A stretch of 64,000 nucleotides of DNA from Arctopsyche grandis. Taxonomy: Eukaryota; Arthropoda; Insecta; Trichoptera; Hydropsychidae. Below the pieces are notes generated by a model that worked only from the letters and a program-made list of their open reading frames with translations, was not told the origin of the DNA and searched no databases. A program made the position numbers and the translations under genes. Position 1 is the stretch's first letter. The number at the start of each line of letters is the position of its first letter. The stretch spans positions 21,413,001 to 21,477,000 of the forward strand of contig NC_135362.1 in assembly GCF_051622035.1 (NCBI RefSeq), written 5' to 3'. Positions 14,352 through 63,316 of this stretch are shown here, in pieces.

Positions 14352-14535
14352 TTACATATAACGAAAAAAATCAATTTAAAATTGAAAACATCGAAGTCAT
14401 AATTTGGCAAAATGTTGTAGTCGAAGTCCCATGTTTGAATGAGTGATTGCGAAATAGAACGGATTCAGGTCGGCGGAGATGGTCGGGTTCGAGCGTGTCT
14501 AGACAAACGTCAAACGTCAAACGTCAGTCGCGTCA

Positions 14536-14747
14536 GCTGGCGTAGTGGCGTTCGGCGTATCGGCGTATCGGCGTATCGGTGTGTTGATTGTGTTATTGCG
14601 ATTGTGTTGCAGGGGCAGGGGCAGGGATTGAAAGGAGTGGGGGCAGAAGAGGGGGGGGAGGTGGAGCTGGAGGGGGGAGGGGGCTCGCGAAGAGGTGGCG
14701 CGTGGAGGCGCGGGTCAGTGCGGCGAGCGAGTTGCCGGTGCGTGGCG
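14536..14747 (+). promoter_or_regulatory. GC-rich leader/promoter region of FATP-A
   Basis: The 200 bp before the FATP-A start are strikingly G-rich (GGGG runs, repeated GGCGTATC units near 14550-14580) in an otherwise AT-rich region. By position this is the 5' leader and probable promoter. No TATA box or initiator is claimed. Just after exon 1 lies a short GACC tandem run at about 14948-14972. Confidence 0.4.
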
Positions 14748-14917
14748 ATGGTGGTTGCGGGCGCGGCCGTGGCTGCCGTGGCTGCGGGTCTCTGCCTGTT
14801 GCTGGGATGGCCGTCGCTGGTGCAGCTGGTGCTGGTGGCCCTCGTCGCCTACCTCGCCGCTTCCGGCTCCTGGCGCTGGTTCTACATCGCCGCCAAGACT
14901 GCTCCTCGAGACCTCAA
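14748..14917 (+). CDS. Fatp: FATP-A exon 1 (membrane anchor)
   Basis: This GC-rich exon encodes about 57 residues: a run of Val/Ala/Leu forming one or two hydrophobic segments, then [16 protein letters not shown], the typical junction between the FATP anchor and its synthetase domain. It ends in phase 2 before GTTAGT and fits the phase of the acceptor at 25895. The first exon of gene B (33816-34009) has the same plan (hydrophobic stretch, then AKTLPRDIK, phase 2), which supports the assignment despite the 11-kb intron. No other RDLK-type exon lies between here and exon 2. Confidence 0.82.
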
Positions 14918-32794: not shown

Positions 32795-33174
32795 GGTCTA
32801 CCTCACGGGACCGAAAGTGAAACGCCCGAAAACGCAAATATCGGAAGCCAGAAATCGAAAATCGAAAGATCTTAAGTCGAAAGCTAAAACAAGGATCTCT
32901 CCCCCCGTCGTACATACTCACTTAGTTTGCGCGAGCAGGATACAACAGGAACAAGAGGAACAGGCTTTTCTTCCCGTAATCTGCGCGCGCACGTTAAACA
33001 AGGTTGTATGACAAAAAGAGAGATAATTTCACCGCATGCCACTCATATATATTATATATACATAGTACCGTTTACCATGCACCTTTTTTTTTTTTTGATT
33101 TTTCGACTTAAGATCTTTCGATTTTCGATATTTGCGTCTTCGGGCGTTTCACTTTCGGTCCCGTGAGGGAGACC
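32795..33174. mobile_element. MITE M, copy 1, with inverted ends GGTCTMCCTCACGGG
   Basis: The left end begins GGTCTACCTCACGGGACCGA and the right end is its inverse (starting GGTCTCCCTCACGGGACCGA), continuing over about 70 bp through CGATATTTGCG-type sequence. The centre has CGCGAGCAGGATACAACAGG and a short TATATA tract. About 380 bp, no coding. A second copy with an expanded TA tract begins at 46278. Confidence 0.8.
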
Positions 33175-37000: not shown

Positions 37001-38981
37001 AATTACAAAGATTGTTTATTATATATTTATACTTCTGGTACAACCGGGATGCCCAAAGCTGCTGTTATTCCAAATTCAAAGCAAGTTTTTACTATAAAAC
37101 ATACACTTTTCACATTACTGCGGTATTTGTTCACATTAATTTTTAAAATTCTAGATATCTGCTAGTCGTCGTGGCAACTGTTCATATGCTTGGTTTGAAA
37201 TGGTGGGATAATAACAAAATCGGAGACATTATGTATAATCCACTACCTTTGTACCATACAGCTGGGGGAATTGTTGGAACTGGAGCCGCTCTCGTAGATG
37301 GTATACCCACCGTCATCAGACCGAAATTCAGTGCTTCTAACTACTGGAGTGACTGTATAAAATACAAATGCACGGTATAGATAAATAATTGACGTTGCTA
37401 ATTAAGAAAATGCATATATTTTACAGATATAATATAATGCATTCCAGGTAGCTCAGTATATTGGAGAGATGTGTCGATATTTATTGGCACAACCTCATCG
37501 CCCTGAAGATTCAAAGCATTCAGTTAGAATAATGGTCGGTAATGGAATGCGTCATGCTATATGGCAAGACATGGTTGATAGGTGTTAATTTTAATTTTGT
37601 AATATTGATTTTTTCACACGCTTGATTAAAGATTGAATTCTCACGTATATGACTATTGCAGATTCAAAATCTCTCAAGTTAATGAAGTATATGGTGCAAC
37701 AGAAGGAAATGCAAACATAAGTGAGTCTAAATATATGTATGATAATTACAATAAAATTAGTTTATTTATCGGTAATGATTTACTTCCGTGTATTTATAGT
37801 TAATGTGGACAACACAGTTGGTGCTGTTGGGTTTGTGCCTTCTTTGTTACCCGTAAGGCTACATCCTATTGCCGTTATCAAAGTTGATGCTACTAATGTG
37901 CCAATCCGCGGGCCTGATGGTTTTTGCGTGAGATGTGCTCCAAGTATGAACAATAGATGAAAAAATATACAAAATATTATAAATTTATGTATTAATCTAC
38001 TGAAAATGTATTACAGACGAACCGGGCATGTTTATAGGATTAATTTCGCAAGGAAATGCCTCACGTGAATTCCATGGTTATATTGATAAGGTATAACAAT
38101 GAGTAAAACTTTATTCGCATTGTATGTTGTGTACATAAAACCGTTAAAAGAATTTATATTTTAATTTTAGGAAGACAGTGATAAAAAAATTCTAACGAAT
38201 GTTTTCCGAAAAGGTGAGAAAGCTTTCCTTTCTGGTGATATATTAGTGATGGATGAAATGGGATATTTATTTTTTAAGGTATGTTCAATATATTGTTATG
38301 TACATTGAAATAGTTTTTAAGCAATAAAATAGATACATACATGTATGTATACTAGATTAAATAAAACTATTTGTTATAGGACCGAACTGGAGACAGTTTC
38401 AAATGGAAGGGAGAGAATGTATCTACAGCGGAAGTTGAAGGAATCATCTTAAACATAACTGGAAATTGTGCTTGTATTGTTTACGGTGTCTCCGTAAGTC
38501 ATTTCATATTTTAAATGTGTTTTTAATTTAGATTTTACAAAGTAATAAGTTGAAATAGAGAAGCTAGTTGTTGATTAGTACATATAAAATATTCAGATTC
38601 CGATGGTGGAAGGCCGAGCTGGAATGGCAGCGATAGCAATCGACGATAAGCAAGATTTGGATTTGGCAAGATTAGCTGCAGGCTTAGACAGGATGTTGCC
38701 TTCGTTTGCTCGTCCCTTATTCCTGCGTATTATGAAAGACATAGAAATAACAGGTATTCAGAATTAAAACAATCTTTCGACTTGTGTAAACTTTCTTGGT
38801 ATTAAATGAGTGATATTTTTCTGCAGGTACTTTCAAATTGAAAAAGCTGAGTTACACAAAAGAAGGTTTCGATCCGGATGTTACAAAAGATGCCATATAT
38901 TTCCGCACGAATTCAAAAGTTTGGCAACCGATGACAACACAACTGTATAAAGATATATGTCAGGGACGTGTTAAGTTATAA
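33816..38981 (+). CDS. Fatp: Long-chain fatty acid transport protein, gene B (tandem FATP paralogue)
   Basis: Thirteen exons give 657 codons in one frame: 33816-34009, 36311-36461, 36542-36779, 36855-37080, 37155-37374, 37448-37581, 37662-37720, 37800-37943, 38017-38090, 38171-38278, 38380-38493, 38597-38753, 38827-38981. Same role as gene A: ATP-dependent activation of long-chain fatty acids at membranes. Visible: an Ala/Trp/Leu-rich anchor, [14 protein letters not shown] (252-265), VYGATEGN (397-404), [15 protein letters not shown] (from 517). Odd points: the intron after 37080 has a GC donor (GCAAGT); several 3' introns sit at different places from gene A; the HSRY that follows the AMP loop in gene A is NSKY here. 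Exons 2 and 3 have the same lengths as in gene A (151 and 238 nt), as expected for a tandem duplicate. No stops or frameshifts, so it looks functional. Confidence 0.92.
34010..36310. other. FATP-B intron 1
   Basis: Holds a 17-bp perfect hairpin at 34096-34133, a TATATA patch at 34324-34390, and AT-rich unassigned sequence. No exon-like segment with FATP similarity seen. Confidence 0.45.
34096..34133. repeat. 17-bp perfect hairpin in FATP-B intron 1
   Basis: Arms CACATGAATACGACATT (34096-34112) and its reverse complement (34117-34133) around the loop ATAC, about 90 bp after exon 1. Confidence 0.85.
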
Positions 38982-40164: not shown

Positions 40165-43100
40165 TCAGCTTTGTGGGTAGCGGGGGGCTGACGGTGCCAA
40201 CCAAGCTGTGAGACCACTGCGCCACCCTAGAGTGTCCCTCAATAGAGATTCTTCTTGTTCCGATAATCCTAATAAAGCGCCAACTGCTTTTGTTAATTGA
40301 CGAGCTTCAATTTCTCGCGACGTGAGAAATTTTATGAGAACATGTTTAAGATACTTTTTGCTCACGTCCGGATCTTCTGCAGAACCTTCCACTACACTAC
40401 TGCCGAGGGGATCTACCTGTCCACCTCGCAGTTCTCTCTGAAGAGTTTTTCGCATATCTGTGAGTCTATTCTGGAGCACTCGTACACTCTGAAAATCACC
40501 AACAAGTAAAGCAAACATAATACAAATTTAACCCTTTGCCCGCGGCAATAAATATAGCGAACAAGCCCTGTCCGCAGCGGCACCTTTTTCGCGAATTTGG
40601 CAATCGAGTTTTCGACCTTAAATACAGATTTTAATATTTACTCAAGTAACCAGATATGTTAATTAACGCATACAGTATTATTTTAAACAATAAAATACAT
40701 AATATATCTCGTAGTTTTGGCTTAATTGTCAAATAATCATTCTTCATACAATTGAGACGTATCGTCTCAATTGTATGAAGACGTGACGTCACATAAACGA
40801 GGTTTCAGTATGGTTCCACAAAAAACTAATTTTGACTGGTATATATTCATTTTAAGCAAATTGAATAGATGGCATTCAACTCTCAGTAATATATTCAACC
40901 AATTTTGAACCTTAAAACAGTTGAAATAGGCGCATATAAGGCTCAAAATCCCGTGCAAAGTTCAGAAATTCTATGGAAGACAGCCGCGCTACAGACTTGT
41001 CGCCCAAAGCTTCCATAGAAGACGGCCGCGGGCAAACGGTTAAAATACTGTTTGAATTTAAAAAGTAATCACGTAAAATAACCTTTGCTTTCTCTGACAT
41101 TTGACAATTTAAATCTTTTACACATTCTTGAAGTTGCTTCTCCGATGTTAATGCACTATCCCTTTCCGTTTTTAAAAGTTCTATTTCATTTTGCCTTTGT
41201 TGCTCTTGATCTCGCAACCCAACTAAAGTATTCTGATCCTAGAGAGAATTAATCGCAAATTAACATTTCAAAAAAAATCGTGTAGTGATTTTTAAAATAT
41301 AATATAATATATTCACTTCAAGATTTTGTGCAACAGTTAGTGTAAGATTTGCAATTTTTTCTTTCAATTCCACAACTTCAACATCTTGCTGTCGCATTTC
41401 TTGCCGATAAATCTCTAGCGTTTGTGACATGTGAGCGTTTCTTATAAGTGCTTCATCTTTATCTCTGCGTTCTCTGTGCAATAAAAGAAAAAAGGAACAA
41501 TTAAAAATGGACATTTCGATATAATCATGTTTTTATTGTATAAAAATACTGACTTGTCATATCGAGCATGTATTTCATTCAATTCTTTTTTAAGACTTTC
41601 ATTCTGTTCTTTTATTGCAACTAGCTGGTTTGATAGATCAAGTGAATGCTGTTTCTGAGTTTCGAGTAATACCTGTGTCTTTTCTGTGATATTTTGTTGT
41701 TGCTGTAATTCACTTCTTAATTTCTGAACGGATTTAAATAGATTGTCTTTTTCTATTGAACATGTTTCGATTTCTTTTTTTAAAGTAGTATTTTGGTCTT
41801 TTTTATTCAGAATTGTTGCTTTTAAACATTTATTTTCATTTTCTAATGCTTCCACTTCCTTTTTACATGTAGTCAAACGTTCTTCTACTTCGGATAAATT
41901 GCTCTCCATGTTTACCTATGATAAAAAATTAAATTTGGAATAGACATTTTGCAATATTTAGTTATAATTAAAATTGTATTATGAAAATGATCCAACAAAA
42001 ATTGGTGTAGAAACACAATAAAATGAATCCTTAAAAACTGAAAATAAATAAGGCGGTAGCTTCTTGTAAATTCCATGCATTTGAAAGGTATGCAAAAAAG
42101 CCTATAGCATGAATAATTAAAATACTTTTAAAGTATAGGAATAACATTACAATCCATTTACGATTTAATATAGGCACCGTTTCCATTATTTTATCTTGTA
42201 TGCATAAACATTTCGTATATTAAATTTATATAGGTCGAATACACACATGTATAAGTTAGTAATCATAGTATAAAAGCTGTATACTTTTTATTTGTTAGAA
42301 ACAAACATTAAATAATAATAAAAAAAACTATATATGTAAACATACATCATGCATCTTTATTGTCAGTTGTTAGTACAATACAAAAAAAAGCAAAAATGAT
42401 TAATATAAATAAATATTAATAACAAAATTTGTATAAAAATTCTACTCCATAAAATTTCAAAATAAAACAAAACGCAAAAAATATAACACAAGAATTCGAA
42501 ATTACGATCAATCAATAGAAGTGAAGACAAAATTAAAAGCCCGCTCCTGAAATGAAAGAAAAGAAATGCTTTGGAGTTTATAGTTTATTTTACGACACCT
42601 TTTTAATATAAAAAAAATCACTTCTGATGTACACCGGAAAAGCTGAAATTGTTGTGCATTTTTATTATACATATATATAACAAAAAATAAAGTAAAAATA
42701 AATAAATCATTTTACTAAAAGCTATCTAAAAAACCTAAGAACACACAGTGAGAAATAAATTAAAAATAACTGATGATTTCAGTGCAAACAAGCGATGCGA
42801 TGATCTTTGACATATCAATAGCTTTATATATCAAATGAGTACACTGAAAGGTAATCAGGGGATCGGGAACGGGTAGGGACTCACTGAAATATCACGATGT
42901 CGCAAAGCTTCTTCTCGTGCTTCTCTCCTAGCACGCGCTACATCTCCAACTTCTGCAGCCAACAACGCCATCTGTTTTAACATTGTTATATTGGAAACTC
43001 AAAACATAGCTAAGAATAACCTTGAACACAATTTAAATAAATTGAACTTCAAAGAAAATTACCCAGGTCTTCTATATTTTTTAAAAATTTAAATATAAAT

Positions 43101-44487
43101 GTTATTTATTATTATACAAATCATCACAGAAATATGTACCTTTGCTTCTTTGTCTTCGAGTGTTGCTTGAGCTTGTTCCAATTGTGTTTCCTTTTCTCTT
43201 AACCGTTCGAGAATACCATCTCTCTCTTTTTCTACTCGCCGTCTTTCCGATCCCTCCTCACCAGCTTGTCGAGACAAACGGCCAACCTAATACATACTAA
43301 AGCGTGAATACATAACGATAAAAACAATATTACCCCACTTGAACATGATGTGATTACTTGAGTTTCAAGTGTTGCAATTTGTCCGCTCCAAGAAGTTTTT
43401 ATGTCGTGTAAATGAAGTTGGGCTTCTTCTAACCTACGTCTCAGAGAGGTTTCAATTGAACTTGCATCAGATGGATTGTTTTCATCTAACAAAATCAATA
43501 TTTAGTACATAAATATTATTATAATCATCTTAAAACTATTTAATTTCAAAATATACCATGTAAGGGTTCTTCCACTAAAGACAAACGGTGCAAAGCATCT
43601 TCGGTAGCTTGTGCTAAGCGTATCCTCTCCATTGCCCAATCACGCCGTTCCATTTCGATTTCTTCCTACAGTTAGAAAGTCATAATTACTGTTAAACTAC
43701 TCAACACCTAGTTAATTGTGAAAAAAGAGAATATACCATTAATGTATCTAATTGATCTTGAGTTCTAGCAGCTGTAGCCGATGTTATTGCTAATTGTTCT
43801 GATAAATTTGACCTCTTTCGACTTTCCTCGCGAGCTTCTCTTCGTGCTGCAGCTGCTTCACCACTCCAAACAGCTACATTGAAAAATGGGCAAGATTGAA
43901 ATATGCGTTCTTCATTAAAAACTAATTTAATATGACATACAAAATTAAATAATATACATACCTTGAGCGGCTTGCATATTGTTTTGTAACGATGTTATTT
44001 TTTCACTCCATTCTCTTTCCTTTTCTTCGATATCTAACATGTGCTGACGTTCTTTTTTCTCCAGTGCTTGTACATGTTCTTTTTTTATAGATTCAATGTA
44101 CGATAACAGTTCATTTTCTTTTAATGTAGCACCATTTATTGACTCGGATATTTCATTCTAAAAACCAAGATAAGAGTTACGCTATATATAATACATATAA
44201 CTGCATGCATACAAGTACACATATAAAAAACGAGTTAGTAAATGTACCTGCGAAGTCATAAAATTTTTGTTATCAGTATCTGTCGATGTACAACTAGACG
44301 TGGAATTCTACAAACCGACAAAAATTATCGACTTGTACACTTAAATACCAATTTAAAGATATGCAAATTTTTCAAATATATGTACCTGTCGAGGTGAACG
44401 AGGTCTAACGGGGAATCTTGGTTGTATATCATTTCCGGTCTCTTCTTTAATCTTGTTCTTTAAAGAAGTGAACATTTTGGCAATCAT
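40165..44487 (-). CDS. GOLGA1: Golgin-97-like trans-Golgi tether with C-terminal GRIP domain
   Basis: Twelve coding exons on the minus strand join in frame to 654 codons (5' to 3'): 44487-44386, 44307-44248, 44157-43962, 43873-43737, 43665-43557, 43485-43358, 43286-43140, 42971-42885, 41915-41554, 41473-41317, 41238-41083, 40488-40165. The N-terminus (MFTSLKNKIKEETG) matches the golgin-97 start. The middle is long heptad coiled coil rich in E/K/Q/L. Near the end LTDMRKTLQREL precedes the GRIP domain (about 590-640) starting KKYLKHVLIKFLTSREIEA. In the family the conserved GRIP tyrosine (here about residue 593) binds Arl1-GTP at the trans-Golgi network. Human golgin-97 is longer (767), mostly in the rod. 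Two in-frame ATGs (44487, 44475) could start it. An acceptor at 44493 just upstream implies a separate 5' UTR exon. The 970-bp intron between 41916 and 42884 could hide a skipped exon. Confidence 0.9.
40532..41039. mobile_element. piggyBac-like MITE in a golgin-97 intron
   Basis: TTAA occurs at both borders (40528-40531 and 41040-41043), with inverted ends CCCTTTGCCCGCGGC / CCGTTTGCCCGCGGC. TTAA duplication is the piggyBac hallmark. 508 bp, no transposase. Fills most of the intron between the last two golgin exons. Confidence 0.75.
40741..40781. repeat. 19-bp perfect hairpin inside the piggyBac-like MITE
   Basis: Arms TCTTCATACAATTGAGACG (40741-40759) and its reverse complement (40763-40781) with a 3-nt loop TAT. 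Confidence 0.85.
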
Positions 44488-44492
44488 ATATT

Positions 44493-45435
44493 CTGCAAAA
44501 ACACAGTAACAGTAAATTTAGTATGTAGTTTTATTTTCAAAAATAATATATCATTGGCATACATTTTTTATTTGGAGTCGGATACTTGAATAGTTCAACA
44601 AATATATGGATGTGTTGTCATTCCAAAAAAAAGATCAATTGTTCATGTAATTTAAAATCAAGAAATCTGATTATAGAAAGCAATGGTATGCTGTTATTTT
44701 TCCATTAAATTGTACAAAATAAAAAAGGATTTACCGAATTGCAGTTGTCAAAATATTACTTACACGGGTAGGATCCGTCAAAGAAAAGTACGTCTATATA
44801 TGAAGCGATCTTTATAATAACCAATACGATAAACATTTGATGAAATTTTCACGAATGCACTTACGAAATAATCAGTTACAAAATCGGAGAACATATTGGG
44901 ATGTCACAATGTGAACGTTGAAGGTGAAACGAGCGGAGTAAATGGCATAATACCTGGTCAAATGCAATATGGTAACACCTGTCAGTGATTACAGAACAGG
45001 TAAATTAACATCAAGTGTAGATAAAGCTGATAAGGAAGCGTATCGATCCGACGAGTATATATATATTATAAATGTGGGCGGTTGCGGGGTTGCGTCTGCC
45101 GCTCACGTCAAACTATCGAGGATTAGGGGTGTGAAGTGGGTGGGGAGCGGGAGGGGAGGCGGGGCAGATGCCCCCCTTGCCGGTGACACAACACCAACTG
45201 ACACTAGAAACACGCCCAAATACGGAAAAGCACGACCATTACCATTATATATATATCAGCTGTAAATGTGAATAAAACATTGCGTATAAAATTTTTAGAC
45301 GCAGGCATGAAAACATACTGAAGATGAGCATTTTATTTGGGTTTGTGGGAGGCTTTAATTGAGTAAATTCACGTGACTTGGGCCAATTGTTCTGTTAGGT
45401 CGTGAGATAAAATCAATCACTTTTTAAATACATAT
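44493..45435. other. Golgin-97 5' flank
   Basis: Expected to hold a noncoding first exon and promoter of golgin-97, since an acceptor sits just before its start codon. A GC-rich patch with an open plus-strand frame lies at 45070-45240 but its translation is unlike any known family. Confidence 0.35.
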
Positions 45436-46267
45436 TGTTACGTATACTAAAAAGAGCCGCCGAGAGAGCGTCCTGAGAGACCGTGTGACCGGTATAAGTG
45501 GTTTTAAGGATTAGCGATAGGCTAAGTGCAAGTAAGCTAAACAATGATTGCACTTCCCAGAATTGACCTGTACCGTACGGAAGACATATCCGTACGTGAC
45601 CATAACAATAGGTAAACAAATTAGACGTCGAAGATGTCCTGAGAGATCTGTAAGACAGGGAAGGTATGTTGACCGTATCCCGGTCTAACGAAACACGTGT
45701 TGTGTAGTTTGAAAGAGGATCGTTTATTTTTGTTCAAATGGTACAATGGTTATTGTATGTACGAAGAGGTTTCTTCGGAGATGTGATCTAGTTGAACTCT
45801 AGAGGCTCACTCTGCCGGTGGAGGTTGCTGCGTTGCTTTACAAACGTTTTGGGTTGAAGTGTGTCGTGTGCACATATTTTGTTCTTGGTACTCGCGCTGC
45901 CCTAGTTATGCTGCGAGCGTGGTTTTATGGGTTCATACGCCTGGACGTAGTTCGTGGTTTTTATGGGTTCAGTGAGTTCTTCCTTTGTTTCCCAGACACG
46001 TGTATAGAAACACGTGTCGACCTTTTGACGAGGCGAGCGTGTGCCATGCGTTAATGACTTTCCTGGATATGTGTCGCAGTGACCTGATGAGATCATTTCA
46101 GTTGTACTATATGCCTACAGATCTATCCCTTATAAGGCGATACTTAGGCGATATCAATTCATTCTGGACTGAGCACTGCCAGTGCGTGTATCTCCTTAAT
46201 CATCAATAAATCCTGTGAGACGACTGTTGGCCTTTTACTTGGATCCTCCACCCACCCCTACGCAACA
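45436..46267. mobile_element. Solo LTR (Ty3/Gypsy-like), 832 bp
   Basis: Ends TGTTACG...CGCAACA form the expected short inverted termini. ATAT flanks both sides (45432-45435, 46268-46271), a 4-bp target duplication. AATAAA lies near the right end (about 46206). No internal retroelement genes. The segment 45655-46119 recurs at 13895-14351. Confidence 0.7.
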
Positions 46268-46277
46268 ATATAATAGC

Positions 46278-46785
<508 letters not shown>

Positions 46786-46799
46786 GTAGATGCTTTCGG

Positions 46800-48370
46800 G
46801 TCATAGACATGACAGAAACTGTAATATAAATAAAGAATGAAAATAGTAAGTAAAAAATTAGAGTTCCAAAATACGCTTAATTACACTGAGCAACAAAAAA
46901 TCACGTTTTTTAGTTACCAGAGCGGAGACTAACCAATCTTTACTAAATTTGACCCACTGAATTCGAATATGGTAATGATTTTTGTTGGTTGGTGATCATT
47001 TACGAGATATGAGCGTTTAAAAAATGCGCGGTTTTTACACTGTTTTGGCTTTTGCGGTCTTTAATTCAAAATATAGTATAGTTGTGCTCAAATTGTGTAT
47101 TGGAATCAATAGTCAGATGTTTTTTCTATTGATTGTGATTTTTTATTGTTTTAAAAAACTTATAATTAATTGTCTAGCAAATTTTAAAAGTCAAAAATAT
47201 ATTTTTTTTTTTGCGTTTATTTGCCCACTTTTTTATTTCACCACGTTTATAAGGATTGGTTTTCTATCCCAATTTTTTTTTTTATCTAAACGTACTAACT
47301 CGAGTGGTTTTTGCGTAAGAAAGACTTTCGTTCAGTTTTCGTATGCGTATAACAGAAGCGTTTGTGCAAGCGAGATGGCAAACGAGAGTCCCACCACACG
47401 CGCGTAAGCGACGGACTTGCCATCTCGCTTGCTCTCATACTAACGATAACTGTCATACTAACGAAAACTCTAGTGCCAAATATTCCGCATTCGCGGTTTT
47501 CATAGCAAAAATTGTCTTTGTGACCATCGCAATGTGACTAATAATCCAATTACCATTTTTAGATTGATAATAGTTATTTTTTCATATTGAGAGTTTAGAA
47601 ATTTGGGCCCTCATGCTTTGCATGACTCTGCTGCTAGGTAGCTACGCCACTGATGAACAATATTTGGTCTAGTGATAAAACGCAATTGAATGTTGAAACA
47701 TCAAAATGTTTGCGAATCACTTACATGTTTAAGAATTAAACGGTTCTTTGTAGAATTTTATAAGAGCATTCAAGAAAATGAATATTTTTTTTCATAAATA
47801 TACGTTTATGACTTCAATGTTCTTGACTTCGACGGTGGTTGCTTGGATTTTTAAGTTAATGTACCGACACATTTGTTTATCGGTAGGTTGGTTTTAGTTT
47901 TGAAAGTTCTTTAAAAAAAGTAGTGGAGTGTATGTAAGTGTAAGAATTTTAGAAACAAGTTTAGTGTTTTCGAATTATCACCATTTAATGCTCTGCAAAT
48001 CATAAACATAAAAAGGTTTGCGGCTGCTATGCAGCTGAACGACAATTGGAGTCGCACTATTGCAATTTTTTTGTAAACATACTTACCCTGACTTATAATC
48101 ATCAAAGATCGTCGTTGAGACGATGCACAAAAAATGGTTCACTATTGTCAACCATGCTTTTTGGCTCATTTGCTTTGTAGCGGTCTATTGTAATTTGACG
48201 AGCATCCAGCCAACGCCGAAGACTAATAATAATCACTGCAGCATTTGTCGAATAAACATATTTCAAATACTAAATTTATTTGTTTACCATAGCACACATT
48301 TACAAAGTTTGATTTTTATGCTAAGAAAATGCAGGCAATCACACAGTAAAACTTTATTTTTATAAGGTTT
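46800..48370. other. Intergenic repeat-rich stretch
   Basis: Starts a repeat-like CACTGAGCAACAAAAAATC at about 46886. A GGTTCGGTGATTA-family copy lies at 47440-47570, and a hAT-type terminus reads CAGTGGCGTAGCTACC on the minus strand from 47652. No gene recognised. Confidence 0.4.
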
Positions 48371-49374
48371 ATTTTCGTGTAATCACGATCGGAAATCAAG
48401 CACCTGATTAGACAATGATTTGTCAAAATCATTGACATATTGGTCGGCTAGAGATTTGGCTTCACGATATACATACATACATACATATGTATGTAAATCG
48501 TCATCTGATAATTCAACGACATTTTTTCTTTGCAGGAAAGCGAACTTTGACACAGTCATTAAATGACGTGAATGAACATTCAATTGCACCAAGGTTACTT
48601 CTAGTGCCGAATTGAAAATTCTTACTTTTAGATAAGAGATTGATGATTCTATGTCAATTTTGGATTCAACCCTTATTTAATTGCAATTTTATGAAATTGT
48701 TACGAATTCTTCAAATTTATTTCTAAAATTACTGATCTCGTCATATGAATTTCTAATGATAGACTGAGCACTGATAACATCGTCGTTTTTTGATTGAAGG
48801 AGCTTTGAAACAAGGTTGAGAGGCCGAAGAATTTTATCAAGGAGTACGAGTAGGAGAATAAATTCGAAACTTCCTATTTTCTTTTGATTGTTCATCTGGT
48901 TGGTCCCTTTGCTTCTGATTGTTCATCCTTTTTTTTACTTTTTAAAATTATTTCTGTAAGAGACTTTAAAACATCTGTACATATGTATATGTATCTCAAA
49001 GTTCATTGATGGAATCTAATCTGGACGACCAACAAGTCGGGTACACTCTCTTTAAAGTAACTGACAGTGAATTTTCCTTAAAAACTTCCCACCTGTTAAT
49101 ACTTATAAATTTGTAAGTTTTATTGGTTTTTACGCCTCATGTAATTTTGTTTTATTGTTTTAACACTGGAAAAATATATACAAGAATAAGAGAACTCTCA
49201 GCTTTATGTACATAAAATAAAACGACATGCAAATAGGTTGAAAAATAAAAGAAGTTTTTAAAAAATTTGTCACAAAGAAATTACAGAACAAGTTTCAAAA
49301 TTATTGAAAAAGGAGCTCCGCTTTGCGTCGCCCCCCGAATTGCAGGGTCTGCGGGTGCGGTCGCTACGCCACTG
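48370..49374 (-). pseudogene. hAT relic copy B (ZMYM1-like transposase), uninterrupted
   Basis: Begins on the minus strand at 49374 with CAGTGGCGTAGCGACCG. Frames read CWSSRLDSINEL near 49060-49000 and FEFILLLVLLDKILRPLN, then YDEISNFRNKFEEF at 48880-48700. It aligns with copy A (8716-10140) but lacks A's SINE. The catalytic N-terminal half is absent in both copies. Confidence 0.7.
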
Positions 49375-49543
49375 TCCTCGAGTCAAATAGACGTCTATGG
49401 TGATCACAAACTTTGTAGTAAATGACTTCCAGTTGAGGTTTTATTCAGATTTTATTTTAATATTTCGATTTGTTGCTTATTTTCATTGTATTCAATTTAT
49501 AAACGATATTCATAGTCATAGATCTTCTCAGACTTTTAATAAT

Positions 49544-50281
49544 ACTGTTTGACAAATGACAAATTTTTTTTTTGTTCACAGACGAGATATGACTTTTCTT
49601 ATAGATATATGCCAAGTGAACACGAATCTGGTAATAAAAACTGTTGATTGGCTCGAGATTCGGAGATATGTGTTTTTTAAATCGCGGGATTTTTCTATAT
49701 ACATACATACATTGACATATTTTCAAAATATGTCAATTTCCTTTTTAAAATGAATATTGGAATCTATAGTTGGGTATTTTATCTTTCATTTGTAGTAATT
49801 TTCAGCTTTCAAATCTCTCTAAGTAGTCGTCCAGTTCAAATCAAAAGTACGTGTTTTCACTTGGGATTTTTTCCCACTGTTAATACTATTTTATATTGAG
49901 TATTTTCTATTGAAGCATGTTTATTGGGATAGTGTTCTGGCCACACTATTTTTTGTCTTCGTTTAAAAGGGTTAATTGGAAGTGTGCTGCATTTTAAATG
50001 GGTAAAATTGCGAGCAAAAAGCTCGTCCTAGTATTTATACGAATCTGAATTGAATTAATAGGGATAATATATTTAATTATCTTTATATGAGAATTAAATA
50101 AAATTGCACTTAGAAAAATCATATTTCGACTAATCTTGTGGATTAATAACAAAAATTCTATTGATAACTCGCTTACCTCGATAAAATAAATGAATTTTTC
50201 TTATATGTAGATATTTACTGGGCATATATCTATAAGAAAACTCATATCTCGTCTATGAACCATTTTTCGTGTCAAACAGTG
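49544..50281. mobile_element. MITE with CACTGTTYGACA ends, copy 2
   Basis: Inverted relative to copy 1 (16659-17386). It retains the sequence into which the 246-bp element inserted in copy 1, and so serves as an empty site (about 50137-50201). Confidence 0.65.
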
Positions 50282-50284
50282 TAA

Positions 50285-53200
50285 TCAAATGAAGAATTGA
50301 TCTATTTAATATACATAGGTCAAGTTTTTTACTCAGAGGTGACTGGCGTATGCGGTTGCCAGATTTATTCCAGTCAAACCAGGACCCCCCTCCCACCCGA
50401 AAAATTCATTCGGGACACTGGGACACGAGGCTTTAAACCGGTGAGCGTCCCGATCAATCGGGACGCCTGGCAAGGCAACCCTACGTATGCCATATGCTTA
50501 CATATGTACATATATTAAATGCCGCAGTTTGTTCTCTTCTGTGGCACGTACCAATTTGATGGATTCGTCACCTGTCGCAAGGGGCATCAAGGTTCTCAAC
50601 CAGATTTCTGTTGGCTTGGATTTGTGTAATCTAAAATATGCTGATTTGGTTGAGGGATTATTTAATTTGATATCGTAAATGTGTGCTAATATTGTATTTG
50701 TTTTTATATATAAATTTATTTGTTTCATATTTTATTTTCATCTGATATTTAACAAATCCATTATGCTGAATTCGTACATTTTATTAGTTTCATGTATATA
50801 TTGTATGTACATATTCATAAATAAAAAATATTCAAAGAATTCAGCTCACTATTTTTGATATTCCAAATATATTCGAAAATTAACCCATTGAAAAAAAAAT
50901 AGACAGTGTTTGAATCGGAGTCGTGTTTCTTTTCCACAACCCTAACTTAAAGACTTACCATTGTATGTTCATGCACACATGACTTTTTAGGTAAACAGCA
51001 TGATTTTTCAGTTGCTCCTAACGTTTTGATAGTACATATTATGCACAAACTTGTATTGTATGTAATTTCGTATATTCACACAAAAAGTAAGATATAAAAT
51101 ATGTAAATAAAAGAACGGTTGACATAATTACTTGTTTATTAACTATATACTCAGAACTGATCCAGAGATCTTCATCACATCATCATTAACTTACAAATAT
51201 AATTTCATAATGTTGACGTATGCACACGTCAAAATCATGGTATATTGTGAATTTTGAGAATTGAAATTTTTTCCTGACATTGGTTTTTTCTTTTTAATTA
51301 AAAACAAGAATTTGATATCTTTGTAATTTTCACTTATTTACATTTTCGTTATCATTTTGATATTGAAAAATTATGATAAAAATTTAGTTTTTTTTTTTTT
51401 TTTTTTTTGATTTGGAATAAGTCATTTTTAATGATAATATAATATTAAAAATATCACAAAATTATTGAAATAAAATTTGAAGAAAATATTAATTCTAAGT
51501 TGCTAGTGATTTTTTATCCAAAGGAAGGATATATTCGATGTAGATTATTACATAAAATATAAAATCAAAACAAATTTTAAATAATTACTATGAGAGAAAT
51601 CATTTTATTCATATAGCATACATACTTATTAAACTGTATTATTTAAAAAAATGTATCCATTACAATTTATCCAAAACAATTTATCTAAAGTGCATTGTCA
51701 CTATTCTCATTTAAGGCTTTACAAACAAAACTGCAGTGATAAATTTAAACTTATCACACGTCCATTTCAAACATTATGTATTATAATTTTTAAAACATAT
51801 TTAATCACATTCAAAATTATGTACGGTGTTTGATACATACAGATATACCAGTACAGAGTCTTTGTTTGAGGGAGCCAATATGACAATAGACACCCAGCTG
51901 TTCAGACCCAATAATCAGATACCCAGACTAATCTCATTGCACAACATGTCTTGTCGTTTGTCTTATTGGTTCATTTTAAATAAACTAATTACTTATTTGG
52001 TCTATTAAGTAAAACTAGTTGATTTCATATTTGAGATCGATTTTTAGGATTGTAAAACTTTTGTTAATGACAATGGGTAGCAAATAGAGTGCCTAAATAC
52101 TTTATGCGATTTGGGGTTCACATTTATATGTAGTAGGTATATCTCGGGCGGAAAATTCTTTAAATTTTTTAAAACAACGCTCAAAGGAAACTATGATCTT
52201 GAACTGATCGCAGGAGCAAATCATTTATGCAATTCGAGTCATCCGATATTTGATGAACCTTTAGATCTGATACCAGTTGTAAATTATAGAGAGATAACGT
52301 CAACAGCACATTTCTGCATAATAATAAATATAGGATATTTCTCAAAGTTTGCAATTTGTTCTTGAAACCAGTACAGGAATGGACAAGGAGAGATAATACT
52401 GTATAATGTCAATAAATAATTTAATAAACACTCTGATTTGGTTGCCCTTTGCGACATTGCTTTAAGAAATTTCAATTTGGAACACCAGATATTTTTAAAT
52501 AGAAAAATTTGTGTAAAATGCTTATATAAAATAATATTTATGAGGTGAAGGTCCTTTTCATTTAATTTAAAATAATAAAATATATAAAAACTTCATAGCG
52601 GACTGTATGAACTTTAATGGAATGAATTCCTCAAAATCGGCGTTTTGGGCTTAATTTTTATATCATAGTTGTGTTGATCAGTGTTGAATTTTTCCGGAAA
52701 TGGACCTTGCATTAGATTGATTCAAATTCGAAACGTCGCCAAACATATCCGTGTTGAATTGTGGAACAGAAACATTTAAAACGTGTTTATTTTTGGAAGA
52801 CTGAGAACAATGAATTTATGTTTAAATGATGAATTGTGCTATAGAACATTAAATTTGATAATATTGTTTTATAAAATTGTAAACACTGTTTTGCCATCAA
52901 ATTTCAAGGCTTGAGTGTAAACATGCACATCCTCGCATACATACGGAACATTCAAAAGTTTCCACTCAGTCTGTACTTGCACACACCCTCGCATTCCACA
53001 CATTCAGACATGCACACGTGTACACAAACACACATTAATACACACACGCGCATACATACGTAAACAGGTGAATGTTAAGTATGTACAAATATGTGTTTCA
53101 ATGTGCATGGTGTAATCATATCACAAATTAAAATAACATACATATGTATATAATATATATTCAAAGTGAATATCTAATCACATATTTTTTGAAAACGATT

Positions 53201-53300
53201 TCTTGACATTATGTAGATGATTGAATGTTTCTTGCTCATAGTTTACAAATCTAAAGAACATGTAAACTACTCCTTATGAATATTTTATGGTCATCTTTAC
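50285..53300. other. AT-rich intergenic stretch
   Basis: Holds a 20-bp-plus T run near 51389 and open frames near 52111-52365 (for example ELIAGANHLCNSSHPIFDEP) that I cannot assign. A CACA-rich patch lies at about 52980-53060. No gene recognised. Confidence 0.4.
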
Positions 53301-56126
53301 AATCTTAGGGCACATTTGGAGTAGTTTCAAAAATAAAGTAGTAAATACGTATAACTAAGCATACATAGCCCCGAGCTTTGGAGCATTGGCCGGATGTATC
53401 TGAGGTGACGAGGGAATACAGCGGGGGCGGTGAGGTGGAGATAAGCTATTTGCGGTCAAGTTTGACGACAGACCGCAACCTCGTATTAAAAGCTCACTTC
53501 TACATACAAAGCAAACTTAAAATATTGGCCATTCATCAGTAACGGAGTTAAGAAATTGGGAAGACGATTGCAAAATTTCCTTTGACTATAAATTCAGGTG
53601 TGACACACGTATGGTTATTAGTGCAAGCTTCAACACTGTTTGCATTCCTTGTTTGCAAACTCCAATTTAACATTGAAATATAATTAGGGTGTATGCACGA
53701 AGGAATGCAACGAAAGTAAGCATGCATAAACTGCCAGATAAAGGGTCCGCTTAAATTTACAACAATACAAATTCTTCAATCGCCAATCATACATAAAAAC
53801 TAAAACTTATGAACTTGTTAATTACACATACGTTATATGCGATAGATTAAGAGGAATAATATAATATACATTTAAAGTCCATATTTATGTAATGATTTAA
53901 TATTTTTTCTGTTATAGAATAAAAGCTACTAGCTAAACACATATGTTAGTTTTATTTTAAATAAGCTACGAGGATACAGACACTATAGAAAATAATATAT
54001 TAATCGCAATCAACCCCTATAGCAATGGTTATAAAAAATAATGCAGAAATTTGCAAATAAAATATATGTATGTACGGATAGTATAAGTATGCTAGCTCAA
54101 TAAAAACACAACGAACACAAAATAGAAAATTTCCAACGTTAGCCGAAAGTGGTTAAATAATGGTTTTGCACCGATCTGTATTGTCTACAAAGTTTCACTT
54201 ATCATAAATGCAGGTGTCAAAAGGAGTCGAGTGCCATAATATAGAAACCGCTAAACTATTGGTGTTTTTTTTGTAATGGAGTCGTCCTTACGCTAAAGGT
54301 TAAGGTGTTAAAATGTATTTATTTTTTCTTATTTATTAATACATATTTACTTATAAATTGCGATAAAACAATTAACTAGCTAAATAGTACATAAGATAAG
54401 TGAACTTTTGACACCGGCCGAGTTAAGCGAGCGACTAGCGAACGAAACAGCTGCAAGCGGCAAGCAAGCAACTCCCCTCTGCTGTCAACTCCAGCCCTCT
54501 TCCGAGCGCCTCCTCTACTTATTACTACGTTAAATCTAATATTTTTATTCAACTGTGAATTGAAAATATGGGTGATTTACTCATCTTATAAATGTAACTT
54601 TATATCTAATCATAAAACAAAACTAGAAATACATATGACGTTCAACTATTGAGATATAAGGTTTAATATCTTTTCTTATGTATATGGAAAATTGGAAATA
54701 AAAACTGAGCATTGAAATATCTAATGGAATCTATAAATTTCTGGTGGGAAGTTAATGTGCTAAAATTAAGACTAGGCTATTTCTTAGCTATTTATTAAAA
54801 AAAAAAAAAATTCCAATACAGAATATTGAAGCAAATGTTGGTAAAAAAAATATAAATCCACCTCACAGGAGATATATATATAATATTTTAAATTATATAT
54901 GTACATCACAAAAACAGTTTGACTTACACCTTTACACGTGCGAACACATTTTCAATAAACATGTGTGCACAGTGATATCCGGCCGTCATCAGGAACTTAT
55001 ACTTTTTTTTTATCGTTATAAACAAATCAATAACAAAATGAAATATTTCAAAAACTATTCATTTCATGCACGAAACACACACGCACGCATTCTCACTCCA
55101 ATCACAATTGTATGTGTGTGTATACATATATATACATATTCTTTATACACATATATACACATACGTACACATATATATTGTATATTATATAACATAGTTG
55201 TTACTCTTGTTGAGTTGTTATTTATTGATATATCACAATCAGTTTGTTCACACTGAAACGCTGTTAAGCAACATACGCCGTGTCGGCTGTACTGTTACAT
55301 TATATATTTACATTATGCTTTCACACTTTTTTCCTTAAGGATATAAAATAACTTACAAAAAAATATTCGTATTCTTAAAATTACAACTAGCTGACGGCCA
55401 GAAAAAAATTCCACGAGTGAAACAATTCAGGCCCAATTACAAACGTACAGTTTACTCTGATATATCAGATGATTACTAGAGGCAGTCAAGAGAAAAGAGG
55501 AGGTAATTGAATATGTATATTAATACATACAATATATACGTGTGTTTTGTTGTCTGCACAAAGACGAATATTTTTTGGTTTTACAAAATTAAAATTTAGC
55601 ATACCTGCCTCTGCTCTTCCAACTCTTATTCTTTCCATATCAAATCTAAAACTACCTTAAAAGTAAATTCTTTAGAGAATATAATATCATGTACTTTTTA
55701 CGATAACTTTATTGATACAAAACCATTGCATCCTTCATATGTGTATTCAAATATATTATTAAATCTCCTTTTTAAGGGGTAATAAGATAATATTTTTCAC
55801 ATTATTCATTACAATTAGTATACAAAATAAAACACAACATAAAAATACATATAAAAATGCATCACGTCCATATTGACCAATAAATGTTGATTTTTTTTAT
55901 ACAAATCAAGACAAAACTACTAATTATAGGGATGATTTCAGTTGTATAACAATATTATGTAACTTTCGATGATTGAATATTTTAATTTTAATATTAAGTG
56001 ACAGTTCAATTGTAAAATTTAAAATTTAATAAACATTTGAAATAAAACATTTAAATGGGCCATTTTATGACCAATCGAAAACCACATGTAAATCACAATA
56101 AATGAGATGAGAAGAGAAAAAACAGG
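53300..56126 (-). other. Probable muscleblind 3' UTR/flank
   Basis: Downstream of the zinc-finger-isoform stop. Contains GC islands at about 53380-53500 and 54410-54530 in AT-rich sequence. No open frame of note; the islands may be conserved UTR elements. Confidence 0.3.
54426..54508 (-). promoter_or_regulatory. YGCY cluster, candidate muscleblind-binding element in the 3' flank
   Basis: Read on the minus strand, this 83-bp GC-rich island has eight YGCY tetramers (RGCR on the plus strand), the core motif bound by muscleblind proteins. It lies about 1.6 kb downstream of the zinc-finger-isoform stop at 56127 and could be in its 3' UTR. Clustering is seen directly; binding and autoregulation are inference. 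Confidence 0.3.
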
Positions 56127-57680
56127 TCAAGGAAGAGGAGGCGCGGGTGGCAACGGCACGGGGATGTGATAAAAGCGGCACGCAGTTCGATGACAGCGAC
56201 CTCCTGCTGCATCCCTGCACACCGCTACACTACCCCCTTCCACAGCCAGACCACAACCTGAAATTTTAATTATATTTGTGTTAATTTAGGAATGAAACTA
56301 CAAATATGCATAATTTATATATCATCGGTATACTGGTAGAAAATGTTAAGTCAAAAATTGGATATTTTGAATTTGTTAAGACAAAAAATGAATAATGATT
56401 TATCTCATACAAAAGAGAACTTCAAACTTCTTCATTATCTCAAAACAAGAAGCTTTCTGCCAGTATACCGACGATATATGATATCAACTAAAACAAATCT
56501 CAGAATGTCAATTGATAGATAAATTTATACATATTTAAAAACAAACCTTCTCGAACATGAACAAGTTTGCAGGTGGGTCTGGTACAGCCTTGTCGATTAA
56601 AATCTTGGCACACCGGGAGGGTGTCCAGTAACTGAAATATTTAAAAGTATTTCATGAATTGTGAAATTTTTGCAAATTTAGTCTTTTGGGAATACTGACG
56701 AAATCAAAAGTAAGAAAAAATTTCCAAATAAAAATACCGCATAATTTAAACGAATGCGAAAATAACATTTAATGTAATATTCAAATATGGACATTCAATG
56801 AGCTGCTGAAATAATGACTTTATTAAAATAAAAATAATGTTTTCACCTGAAAAGGTATTTAAAATATTAAATGCTAGATGCATTTTGATATTTGATAAGA
56901 CCATTCATATAAAATGTGTGTGTTTTTTTTATATTATATTACACATACAAATATATTAATTGTATATAATTTGTATGCATACAACTTTTGAAATAATATA
57001 ATACAAATTTAAAAATGAAAAATATATTGTATGTAACTTAAAATGCTTATTATGGGAAATACTTCTATATTGTACAATTAAAATAAAGCTAGGAAGACGA
57101 AAGCTATCACTCAATATGAACAACAAATACGAGAAAGCGTGCGCTTTTTACTATTATATGTATAATATATATGTATATAGCCTGATTGGGAAGCACAAAA
57201 GCAAAAAATTTGGCAGTGTATAAAAGCTAAATAATAAGTGTCAACGATTAAATGTGTTATGTAAATTAAATTATAAGGTTTGTTAGAATTCAGGCAACCA
57301 AACCCAGTTTTGGTTATTGTAATTTTACAGTTGATTGGGCATATGAATCATTTGAAAAACTACTTAATTTATACACAAAACAGAAACAATAGCTACTTGT
57401 TTGAAATTATGTAGGTGTCGGGGTGGAAAGAATTGAATATTCTTCAATGGATTATAGCATAAATAATTAAGTCAACTACTTACATATATGGTCAAGCAAA
57501 AACTGCGAGGAAACTCTTCAAAAAGGCAAAATACACTCTTAGGAAACACACTGTTCATAAAGTTGTTATTTGTGGGTTTGATGTCCGAAGTACCTGTCCT
57601 CTTTCATCCGTGTAGAGTACATGCTGTGCATTTAGAGGCACGGCGCAGCCTACAGCCATGCACGGTAATATAGCGGTCAG
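56127..57680 (-). CDS. mbl: Muscleblind downstream exons encoding a second tandem CCCH zinc-finger pair
   Basis: Three minus-strand exons agree in phase: 57680-57594 (29 codons, ends YTDERGQ, donor GTACTT), 56631-56547 (LLDTLPVCQDFNRQGC, then CKLVH) and 56257-56127 (VAVCRDAAGGRCHRTAC, then RFYH, then a Pro-rich tail and TGA). Each finger has C-x7-C-x4-C-x3-H spacing, the pattern of the second finger in muscleblind/MBNL pairs. Acceptors at 56632 and 56258 are good; that of the first exon (GAG before 57680) lacks a clear pyrimidine tract, so its 5' edge is uncertain. Strand and phase allow splicing from the upstream muscleblind exon at 63275, skipping the 320-residue terminal exon. Insect muscleblind genes are reported to make isoforms with a second finger pair, which this fits. 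A separate small CCCH gene is the alternative. Confidence 0.75.
56317..56479. repeat. Inverted repeat within the intron between the two zinc-finger exons
   Basis: Arms 56317-56342 and 56454-56479 match at 24 of 26 positions (TCGGTATACTGG core) around a 111-bp spacer. Could fold in the pre-mRNA beside the 56547 donor and 56258 acceptor, or be a small MITE. Confidence 0.65.
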
Positions 57681-60600
57681 CTCCACACAACAGTCACCGT
57701 ACACACATGACGATGCATTCATCCAAATACAGGATAGAAACCGACACCAAGAGGAGATTGTGAAATATCAGTATGAAATTAATAAGTAGGCAAGTTATTT
57801 TGTGGTTATCAGTTGTCATCACATTTGGGAGACATGAAACAAAAAGCACTTTTTCTTAAAACATGCTTTTGCAAATAATAATAATAATATAAAATTATAA
57901 AAAAACAAAAAAAACACATGCATAATAATTAAAATAATAGACATATTTACCATAGACTTGACATATACAAAACAAGTTTTACCTATGAGCCTAAAATAAC
58001 AATAACAAGTGGTCATAACAAAATACTAATGTGTAGGCTAGTTCAAATACAGTGACATTGCTTCACACATGTTCATGTTAGCAAGCAATTAAATGCGCCA
58101 AAGCTGATTACATTTCTTTCTTGACTGAAATGTACATACTTATTTGTATGTATTAAGTTAGGTTCACATTTATATATCAGTAAAGGCTTTATGGAATTAA
58201 TCTGAAACAAACACATATGGGTACTAAAAAAAGCCAAAACTAAAACAATAATAAGTAAAAAGCACAAAGGAAAGTTATCTACAAAAGGCAAAAAATTATA
58301 GACTACCAACTTCAAAAACAATCTTTCCAAGGATTATTAACAAAAATGATGCTTACTAAGCAGCCACCCTAAAGTGTGTCGTTTGAGATTTGATTTTGAT
58401 CATTGCTATAAATGCGTTTAAGAATTTTCAAAACGGTTGGTAAGAACAAAACTGTTACTATACTAAAATACAGTAGATGCTAAAAAATTACACAATAAGG
58501 TAAAAAATCTGATTCGAGAGGAAATCAATGACTGTTTTCTATTACAAATGTATAAAAAAATTCTATTTTTTATAAGCAAATAAAAGCACTTTTCACACTC
58601 GATGGATAAAAACACAACACAAATAGGTCATCAATGGAAATAATCAAAACGATAAATTAAATAAATATAAAAATACTGTCTCCTTACATGATTTTTTCAC
58701 TAATGCCACATTAGAATTTTATTTTATTTCTACTTTTAGCATACATTATGACTACGGCATAAGTTTCATACACATAAGCTGCCATGAGGTAATCCGCAAT
58801 CATGATTATTTAAATGTGCAATAAAGGGTGGTGCAGACGACGGTATCGAATCTTCAGCGTGAATGCCTGAATCTTTATATGTAGTTGGTAACCATTCTAC
58901 AGATCATCATATTTCAACTATGTACGTGTCTATATTGAGAAAATATCAGGATTAGATTGATCTTTGAAACGATTGAAAATTTTCATATGTTAGTATATTA
59001 CAAAATATGTATGTTGTGTTAGAGATTTGCTAAGTGTAAAAATATATAAATTAGTATGAAACAAGAAACAAACACACGCACACGCACACACACACGTACA
59101 CACACTGGTCGAATAAAATAAAATAGGAAACAAAAACTGTTGTTGATTCGACCAATTTTCTCTGAATGTTTACAAAAAGCTCTGGATATTGAATGAATAT
59201 GAATGAGTTTCAGTTAATCATTAAGCTGTGCAAATAATTATGAAAATTGGTAGTTAAGGTTTTGCATATTACAAAAATAAAAATAAAACAAATACCTGGG
59301 CACCAAGTTGATTACTTAAATTTTCTATTCCATGCTACATTAGGAGGCGTAGTGTTAGGGCGCACCCGGCTGGCGGCTCCGTACAAGCAGTGCCAAGTCA
59401 GTCAAGCTCGTGTAGTTGAGACACAAACAATGGAGCCACATACCAAATTAAATTCATATGTATATATATATACATACATATATATATGTGTGTGTGTGTG
59501 TATATATATATATAGATACACATATATACATATATGTGTGTGTGTATACATGTATATATACATGTATATACGTATTTTTATTCAAAAAAAGCTGTAACAA
59601 CTTACTACTAGTAAATAGAATTAATGATCTGTTTTAGGGTAGGAGGTTAAGGCCATTCTGTAGCCAATTTACTTTAAATACGTACAGGAAAAACTGCATG
59701 TCATTCACTACCATACTAGGTAACTCAAGCTCTGTAATTACTACGAGAAAACACATTGCTGAAGCAAAACGAACACCTGATGAGAAGACACATTTCACAG
59801 AGTGTGGTTCCTCATCACTATTTGAGATATAAGTATGTATATAATATGATTGTAACAAAGATCTCAATAAAAATAAATAATTTCAGGTAAAATTAGTAAA
59901 AATGAACCAGTCAAATAAAGGTTTTAAGTGTGAGGAAAAGATAGGGATGTAAATTTAAAATGTATTCAAAATATACATATATAATATTTGTAGTCCAAGA
60001 ATTCGGCTTGTGGTTGTGATTCTTCTCGGTTCCCAATATTGTTAAGGTGGTGCTTAAGAAGCCATTTATTTTAAAGCAGTGTTATTTGTTTAATTATTAT
60101 TAAATATGCTATATATATATAATAATTAGAATACAAATTTAAAGTAAATTAAATGGAAAGTTCTCAGAGCACTCTCAATTTTTAGCATAGTTGAAGTATT
60201 TTTGTAATTGTAAATATATATATATATTATCATAATAGTATGAGAACTTACATTATTTGTCGGCGATGATATAAAATATCAACGTTTCCATTGACTTTTT
60301 AAGTATCGGTTGCTGAGTTAAGATTCTTAGTGCTGTACATAATGTACAGGCAATGACAATACATATAAAAAGCATTCAACAGTATTGTACTGATGGATTC
60401 AAAAATACAACACTCGTGTTTGGATAGTTGATTGTTTTAGTTAAAATGTTTGTGAAATGATAACAATTAATGTAAAAAAATAATGTGTCGAGGTGCAAAT
60501 CTTTTGATTGAAAACATATTGACTTCATTCAAAAGCTTTATAACTTAACAATTTAAGGGAATAGGCTGGGAGTGGCTACAGGAAGCTTAGGGTGTGAGGC

Positions 60601-62188: not shown

Positions 62189-63316
62189 TTAAGTAGTCTT
62201 CATTTTTTTATAAGGGTTTATAATAACAGAAGACGAGGATGTAGGAACAGAAGAAGAGGGAATTTGGTAAAGTAAAGGTTGGTGGTAAATTGAAGGCATT
62301 GGTGTCATAAGCTGTGGAGGTAACATTGATAGAGAAGGTGAAGTCCATTGTAATGGAATTTGTCCACCCAATTGTCCTTGCAGCTGATTACTAAGTTGAG
62401 AACTAAGTTGAGATTGTGAAAACTGTGAATTAACTTGAGGTGAAAATTGTCCATTTAACTGATTATTGATTTGATTGTTGATTTGATTATTGATTTGATT
62501 ATTGATTTGATTATTGATTTGATTAGAAAGCTGTGATGGTAGCTGACCACTAAGATGAAGATGATTAGCTAGCTGATTTTGTAAATGCTGTGCTTGTAAA
62601 TGACTTGGTAACTGAAATTGTTGAGATTGAAGTTGAGCACGTAATAGCGGCGGATAATTCGGAAGGATAGAGGGAGGTGGACGATATATTAACGAAGAAG
62701 CAGAATGGGCTGGTGTAATTGAGGATGTTATAGTTGGAGTAAGTGAACTAGACACAGATATTGCAGACGGACGAGGTGTTGACAGAGCCTGTTTATTCAA
62801 AGCTACACCCGTGTAAGTAAGAGCTGTAAGTGGAGTAACAGTTGTAGCGGAGGGAATTTGAGCAGCTAATTTGGCTGCGAAGTTAGATTGGGCCACTTCT
62901 TTAGCAACAGTAGCAGGGTCAGGAGACGGAGTTGGTGCAGGTGGAGTTGTCGGGGAAGTGGTAGAGGGCGGCACGGGCGGGCGTGGCGAGACGGCAGCGG
63001 GGGGCGCAGGGGCAGGGTACTCACATGACACGGGCACAAATGGCTGCTGCAGCTGCATTAGTTGCTGGTAAGTGGTGGCGGGCTGATAAACAGGCATGCC
63101 TGATTTGTCTGCCGCGGCCCGTTTAAAAGGAACCATTCCTCCAGGGAATCCCTGAAAACACGTATACATTTACACTCAATGATATGATACACTCACCGAA
63201 ATAACAACCTATAATATAACAGCAGATATTATACATTCATTATAAAAATAATATTTTTAGAAACTAAAACTTACAAAATTTTCATAGTAGAAAGATCCAA
63301 CAGTCTTCATATCCAT
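62189..63316 (-). CDS. mbl: Muscleblind, C-terminal portion (partial; N-terminal zinc fingers lie beyond the right edge)
   Basis: Two minus-strand exons are seen. 63316-63275 (42 nt, phase 0 to 0) encodes MDMKTVGSFYYENF. 63151-62189 starts GFPGGMVPFKRAAADK and ends NPYKKMKTT then TAA (320 residues). The run MPVYQPATTYQQLMQLQQ and PFVPVSCEYP is diagnostic of insect muscleblind. Later parts are Pro/Ser/Thr-rich, include AAKLAAQIPSA and LTYTGVALNKQ, and then become Gln/Asn/Leu-rich with a QINN tandem repeat. Muscleblind proteins bind YGCY RNA through CCCH fingers and regulate alternative splicing; this exon is the disordered tail of the long isoform. The exon carries a strong internal donor-like site (GTGAGT after 63025) that could give a shorter isoform. 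Upstream zinc-finger exons are outside the window. Confidence 0.9.
62458..62525 (-). repeat. 12-bp in-frame tandem repeat (QINN units) in muscleblind
   Basis: About five copies of a 12-bp unit encode Gln-Ile-Asn-Asn within the Gln/Asn-rich tail. The period keeps the frame, so copy-number change would lengthen or shorten the tail without disruption. Confidence 0.85.

Follow-up and report, generated by a model that had tools for sequence, protein, structure and literature searches.

A muscleblind-type zinc-finger pair on alternative terminal exons in Arctopsyche grandis, and a candidate splice route leading to it

The minus strand of the window, as we call the whole stretch of 64,000 nucleotides analysed here, encodes a well-formed pair of muscleblind-type CCCH zinc fingers on alternative terminal exons, and this pair is real. 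We lean towards the view that a muscleblind (mbl) gene ends in these exons at its 3′ side and gains from them an alternative C-terminus, of the MblF kind, that carries the fingers; an exon further upstream, exon B, would then be a composite terminal exon. The finger-bearing end comprises the following features.

57594..57649, minus strand: exon C in its preferred form, CAVPLNAQHVLYTDERGQ, 56 nt, phase 1 in, phase 0 out
56547..56631, minus strand: exon D, finger 1 (CQDFNRQGCTRPTCKLVH), 85 nt, phase 0 to 1
56127..56257, minus strand: exon E, terminal, finger 2 (CRDAAGGRCHRTACRFYH) then IPVPLPPAPPLP and the stop TGA, 131 nt
55981..56030, minus strand: three ATTAAA polyadenylation-type hexamers (starts 56030, 55992 and 55986), found by pattern scan ∼100–140 nt past the stop

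The two fingers are adjacent and both read Cx7Cx4Cx3H, one of the two spacings (Cx7Cx4 or Cx7Cx6) by which membership in this class of CCCH pairs was judged. Across all six frames, the window contains the exact pattern at just two places, the fingers of exons D and E, as against a mean of 0.04 occurrences in 100 first-order Markov simulated windows; a same-strand pair within 1 kb was seen in none of 100 such simulations. The D–E intron (56546-56258, phase 1) separates the fingers, and no single open frame contains both. Splice sites were ranked among the 2833 acceptors and 3353 donors of the minus strand of the window, using approximate matrices written from general knowledge and not trained on this species. 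By this measure, the exon D acceptor ranked 408/2833 and its donor (AAG/GTTTGT) 186/3353, while the exon E acceptor ranked 704/2833. In AT-rich DNA, the ATTAAA hexamers past the exon E stop are weak evidence for polyadenylation.

Homology searches support the muscleblind character of the pair. Against Pfam zf-CCCH_10, the exon E peptide alone scored over the 27-bit cut-off (E 3.3e-7, 30.1 bits) and the exon D peptide alone under it (E 4.3e-5, 23.3 bits). The match became much stronger with a 93-residue peptide that starts at an in-frame ATG (57659) and covers exons C, D and E (E 6.8e-12), and with a 146-residue join that adds exon A and the short form of exon B, described below (E 2.5e-11). 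The 93-residue peptide retrieved six PDB sequences at E ≤ 1 with phmmer, the best being 5u6h (1.7e-10). Five of the six are named MBNL1 or MBNL2 and the sixth, 2e5s, is labelled OTTHUMP00000018578; within PDB sequences, the best relatives of the finger pair are thus MBNL proteins. Three of the four alignments printed were used to count identical residues, giving 26/59 (5u6h), 26/59 (2rpp) and 22/63 (2e5s). Other collections yielded no confirmed relatives: 13 pattern matches in viral contigs and 196 in genome contigs (a collection without insect genomes) gave none, and plasmids returned just two matches, with E-values of 8 and 9. A literature search for the strings VCQDFNRQGC and QLMQLQQ found no paper.

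The two fingers differ in how closely they keep to the MBNL pattern. Phe202 and Tyr236 of MBNL1, aromatic residues two positions past the third cysteine, are described as intercalating at the GC step of RNA (PMC9780971); in this column, finger 1 has Leu and finger 2 has Phe. Finger 1 moreover has a shortened loop, and finger 2 retains both the aligned aromatic and GRC. The initial annotation had singled out finger 2 (VCRDAAGGRC) as the variant, yet it is the more ordinary of the two and finger 1 is the odder. Because of the Leu in the intercalating column and the shortened loop of finger 1, we predict that the D/E pair probably binds RNA more weakly than the MBNL pairs do, or in a different manner. 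The same two departures would also fit exons C, D and E being relics in decay that have dropped out of splicing. We regard this as very improbable: all zinc ligands are intact, the frame is unbroken, and the C–D–E boundaries are all GT/AG. Likewise, GC content is 0.49–0.61 in exons C, D and E, well over the 0.24–0.32 of the introns and 3′ flank, and falls from 0.61 in exon E to 0.27 downstream of it.

Which of the known muscleblind pairs does this one resemble? We take 5u6h, 3d2n and 2rpp to represent ZnF1-2, and 2e5s, 5u6l and 3d2q to represent ZnF3-4. On this assignment of chains to pairs, the phmmer scores (44 bits for 5u6h versus 39.7 for 2e5s) slightly favour the first-pair group. The first pair of MBNL and mbl is also intron-split, as is the D/E pair, but its intron is reported to lie inside ZnF2 (PMC13044900) and the D–E intron lies between the fingers. 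The second pair (exon 5 of insects, ZnF3-4 of vertebrate MBNL) shares with the D/E pair the tandem CCCH arrangement and the match to zf-CCCH_10 and MBNL structures. It is, however, described as sitting on a single exon (PMC3315501), and ZnF1 and ZnF3 of MBNL1 are given as Cx7Cx6Cx3H (PMC9780971), unlike the Cx7Cx4Cx3H of finger 1. The intron position therefore fits neither the ZnF1-2 nor the ZnF3-4 layout, and the intron within the pair, together with the spacing of finger 1, led us not to adopt the D/E pair as the canonical second pair.

According to the published description, Drosophila MblF (transcript RF) carries a second, weakly conserved finger pair with 32% identity and 49% similarity to human (PMC3315501). 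Both this pair and the D/E pair are divergent tandem fingers, and the divergence is similar here (22/63 with 2e5s, 26/59 with 5u6h). In addition, a loose finger-pattern scan of the window gave five matches and no canonical second pair; the three matches other than the D/E fingers are, by eye, low-complexity or Cys-rich frames. As no canonical second pair was seen in the window, MblF-like is the likelier label for the D/E pair and the best available one. The label is drawn from the published description of MblF and does not imply orthology. An extra finger pair of this kind is thus already known from flies (PMC3315501); the literature search gave no further paper on a two-pair insect muscleblind among the matches listed, and a narrower search on four-finger muscleblind isoforms of insects gave none at all. 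The contrast of two versus four fingers proposed in the initial annotation is weakened by the fly literature, since exon 5 of the fly gene is described as bearing a separate, well-conserved pair on one exon that is present in other insects too (PMC3315501). The canonical pair, if present, would lie upstream of position 64000, so that two, four or six fingers are possible.

Upstream of the finger exons, on the same strand, lie the exons to which they might be joined.

63275..63316, minus strand: exon A, MDMKTVGSFYYENF, candidate upstream joining exon, 42 nt, phase 0/0
63025..63151, minus strand: exon B, short form, GFPGGMVPFKRAAADKSGMPVYQPATTYQQLMQLQQPFVPVS, putative MblC-type block, 127 nt, ends in phase 1
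62189..63024, minus strand: tail extension continuing exon B, first P-rich and later Q/N-rich, 278 residues up to the TAA; retained if the donor at 63024 is unused

Exon A has a high-ranking acceptor (48/2833), a donor (TTT/GTAAGT) of rank 334/3353 and a GC content of just 0.29; its position and frame suggest that it is an mbl exon. The acceptor of exon B ranks 170/2833. In its long form, exon B (63151-62189) encodes 320 residues within an open frame spanning 62189-63169. It begins with PFKRAAADKS, which by eye resembles the FKRP block of MblC (PMC2238819) and likewise the KRAEK nuclear-signal motif described for MBNL (PMC13044900). The fly MblC-specific sequence is reported to be 64 residues long (PMC2238819), in contrast to the 320-residue open frame of exon B, and exon B reads FKRA where MblC has FKRP. 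The MblC block is stated to occur in all species analysed in that study (PMC2238819). The searches run gave no match of exon A or B to muscleblind: Pfam returned a best E-value of 0.18 for the 326-residue exon B frame, and a 55-residue exon B query produced 594 pattern matches in genome contigs and 600 in viral contigs (two collections without insect genomes), none of them confirmed. Thus, of the initial muscleblind reading, the part concerning muscleblind-type fingers on downstream exons holds, whereas we infer the muscleblind identity of exons A and B from resemblance by eye.

Two further features were noted in and around exon B. At 62460-62525 (minus strand), an in-frame 12-nt tandem repeat of 5.5 copies with 96% matches codes for the repeated NQIN units in the Q/N-rich tail, and is possibly length-variable. 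A very strong donor-like site, TCG/GTGAGT (score 9.69), lies at 63196 on the minus strand within the A–B intron. Past the TAA of exon B, a scan of 62188-60800 found the nearest ATTAAA at 61480 and the nearest AATAAA at 60946.

Directly after the PFVPVS block, exon B contains an internal donor at 63024 (CAT/GTGAGT, phase 1), which ranks 28/3353 among minus-strand GTs and scores highest of the 38 GTs evaluated within the exon. Finding such a donor is in itself weak evidence, because one as strong is present in 23 of 64 minus-strand controls of equal length taken outside exon B. The phase of the 63024 donor matches that of the exon C acceptor at 57649 (CTGTAG/GC, phase 1, score 0.40, rank 377/2833). 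The join is open, and exon A, the short form of exon B, exon C from 57649, exon D and exon E together form a 146-residue open frame up to the TGA. The 3′ border of exon C is set by its donor (CAG/GTACTT, rank 104/3353), so that the exon ends at 57594 in phase 0; this donor, at 57593, fixes the reading frame. The 5′ border has several candidates. A sequence CTGAC at 57680-57676, 27 nt ahead of 57649, is branch-site-like. Two other acceptors are in phase 0, namely 57623 (score 1.93, rank 171/2833) and 57680 (score −4.87, rank 1759/2833), and the exon has two more AGs, 57600 and 57598, no more than 7 nt from its end. Base composition did not place the start of exon C, as GC is 0.62 at 57624-57649, 0.52 at 57650-57680 and 0.44 at 57681-57767. 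The initial annotation had proposed three phase-matched minus-strand exons bearing two fingers and a stop; the fingers and the TGA stand, as do exons D and E with corrected borders, but its start of exon C at 57680 was rejected for its poor acceptor. Joining the short form of exon B to 57623 or 57680 was likewise rejected, being out of frame. By phase, 57649 could also be joined to any phase-1-ending exon outside the window.

The in-frame route from 63024 to 57649 also removes the need, asserted in the initial annotation, to skip the 320-residue exon: skipping exon B is possible, and through 57623 it is in frame as well, but it is not required. In such transcripts, exon A would be spliced directly to exon C, using either 57623 or the weak acceptor 57680, and the finger isoform would lack both the MblC-type block and the nuclear-signal-like motif. 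The phase-0 end of exon A leaves either join in frame and open, and by rank 57623 is the better acceptor when compared with 57649. Against this, the first usable AG (57649) would have to be bypassed, 57680 scores poorly, and the isoform would lose a block reported from all species analysed (PMC2238819). We consider omission of exon B a rather unlikely course, and use of the internal donor the preferred one.

The frame of exon C is open upstream to 57767 and includes the ATG at 57659, with which a 93-residue protein could start. Exons C, D and E might accordingly form a small independent gene, driven by a promoter of its own, that arose when an mbl finger pair was duplicated and became detached. 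We judge this improbable, given that the presumed mbl exons lie directly upstream of the three exons and on the same strand, that the acceptors 57649 and 57623 are phase-matched to the donors of exons B and A respectively, and that a finger-bearing mbl isoform has a precedent in the fly (PMC3315501).

If, as we prefer, the exons belong to mbl and both ends are used in transcripts, one splice choice would separate two proteins. Ignoring the donor at 63024, the cell would read exon B to its TAA and produce an Mbl protein with a long low-complexity tail. With the donor in use, just the first 127 nt of exon B would be retained and spliced to exon C (from 57649), followed by exons D and E, so that the protein would end in the additional CCCH pair and a short stretch rich in proline. 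Both forms would share the opening 42 residues of exon B, which hold the MblC-type block with KRAAADK, whereas the 278-residue tail and the finger pair would be mutually exclusive, and the finger pair may tune the RNA-binding valency of the protein. A bolder and rather doubtful extension is that one mbl gene has three such tandem pairs: a split first and a single-exon second, both upstream of the window, and the divergent third described here. A single donor inside the composite terminal exon would then trade the 278-residue disordered tail for the third pair, making valency (two, four or six fingers) and the tail a single splice decision, possibly controlled by Mbl itself.

Such an exchange would plausibly shift the role of the protein. 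Fly transgenes with one versus two finger pairs are reported to rescue different splicing defects, although amount or localization was not excluded as the cause (PMC3315501), and in MBNL1 the fingers are described as associating with kinesins and the unstructured tail as anchoring at membranes, the two jobs being separable (PMC10256740). If real, a gene in which a single splicing decision replaces the tail by fingers would offer a natural test of how these modules share their work. The routes also differ in a way that is experimentally clean: both isoforms keep the MblC-type block under the composite-exon model, and the finger isoform loses it under skipping. The analysis adds a corrected candidate splice model for the finger-bearing end; the kind itself is known from flies.

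The nearest other recognised gene 3′ of exon E encodes a GRIP-domain coiled-coil protein near 40.2–44.0 kb (10 of 200 ORFs of at least 60 aa were scanned). This golgin-like gene (40168-43994, minus strand) matches GRIP at 40168-40527 (E 3.9e-11) and coiled-coil families at 41445-41915, the latter all under the cut-off; as Pfam matched nothing at 40915-41238 or 43704-43994, its 5′ extent is a guess. Between it and exon E (43995-56126), 20 of 41 ORFs of at least 60 aa were scanned and none passed a Pfam cut-off, the one weak match being DUF1523 (E 0.0088, 15.9 bits versus a cut-off of 23). Rfam and tRNA scans of the window found nothing.

Elsewhere in the window, AMP-binding enzyme frames occur at 36458-37162 (plus strand), 29127-29214 and 37663-37750, with PF00501 matches of 3e-13 and, just below the cut-off, 5.5e-7. 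Together with an 88-nt direct repeat, 70% identical and reading YGATEGNAN by eye at 29.1 and 37.7 kb, these frames suggest that an acyl-CoA synthetase or fatty-acid transport gene is present twice. Two pairs of repeat segments at 13895-14351 and 45655-46119 (plus strand), 98% identical and ∼31.8 kb apart, are perhaps a recent mobile element. A further repeat pair lies at 32785-33064 and 46268-46542 (plus strand; segments 91% and 93% identical), its second copy adjoined by a 237-bp AT dinucleotide array (46523-46759). Finally, the region 14439-15115 is GC-rich (0.58–0.71) in an otherwise AT-rich window and has long open frames on both strands.
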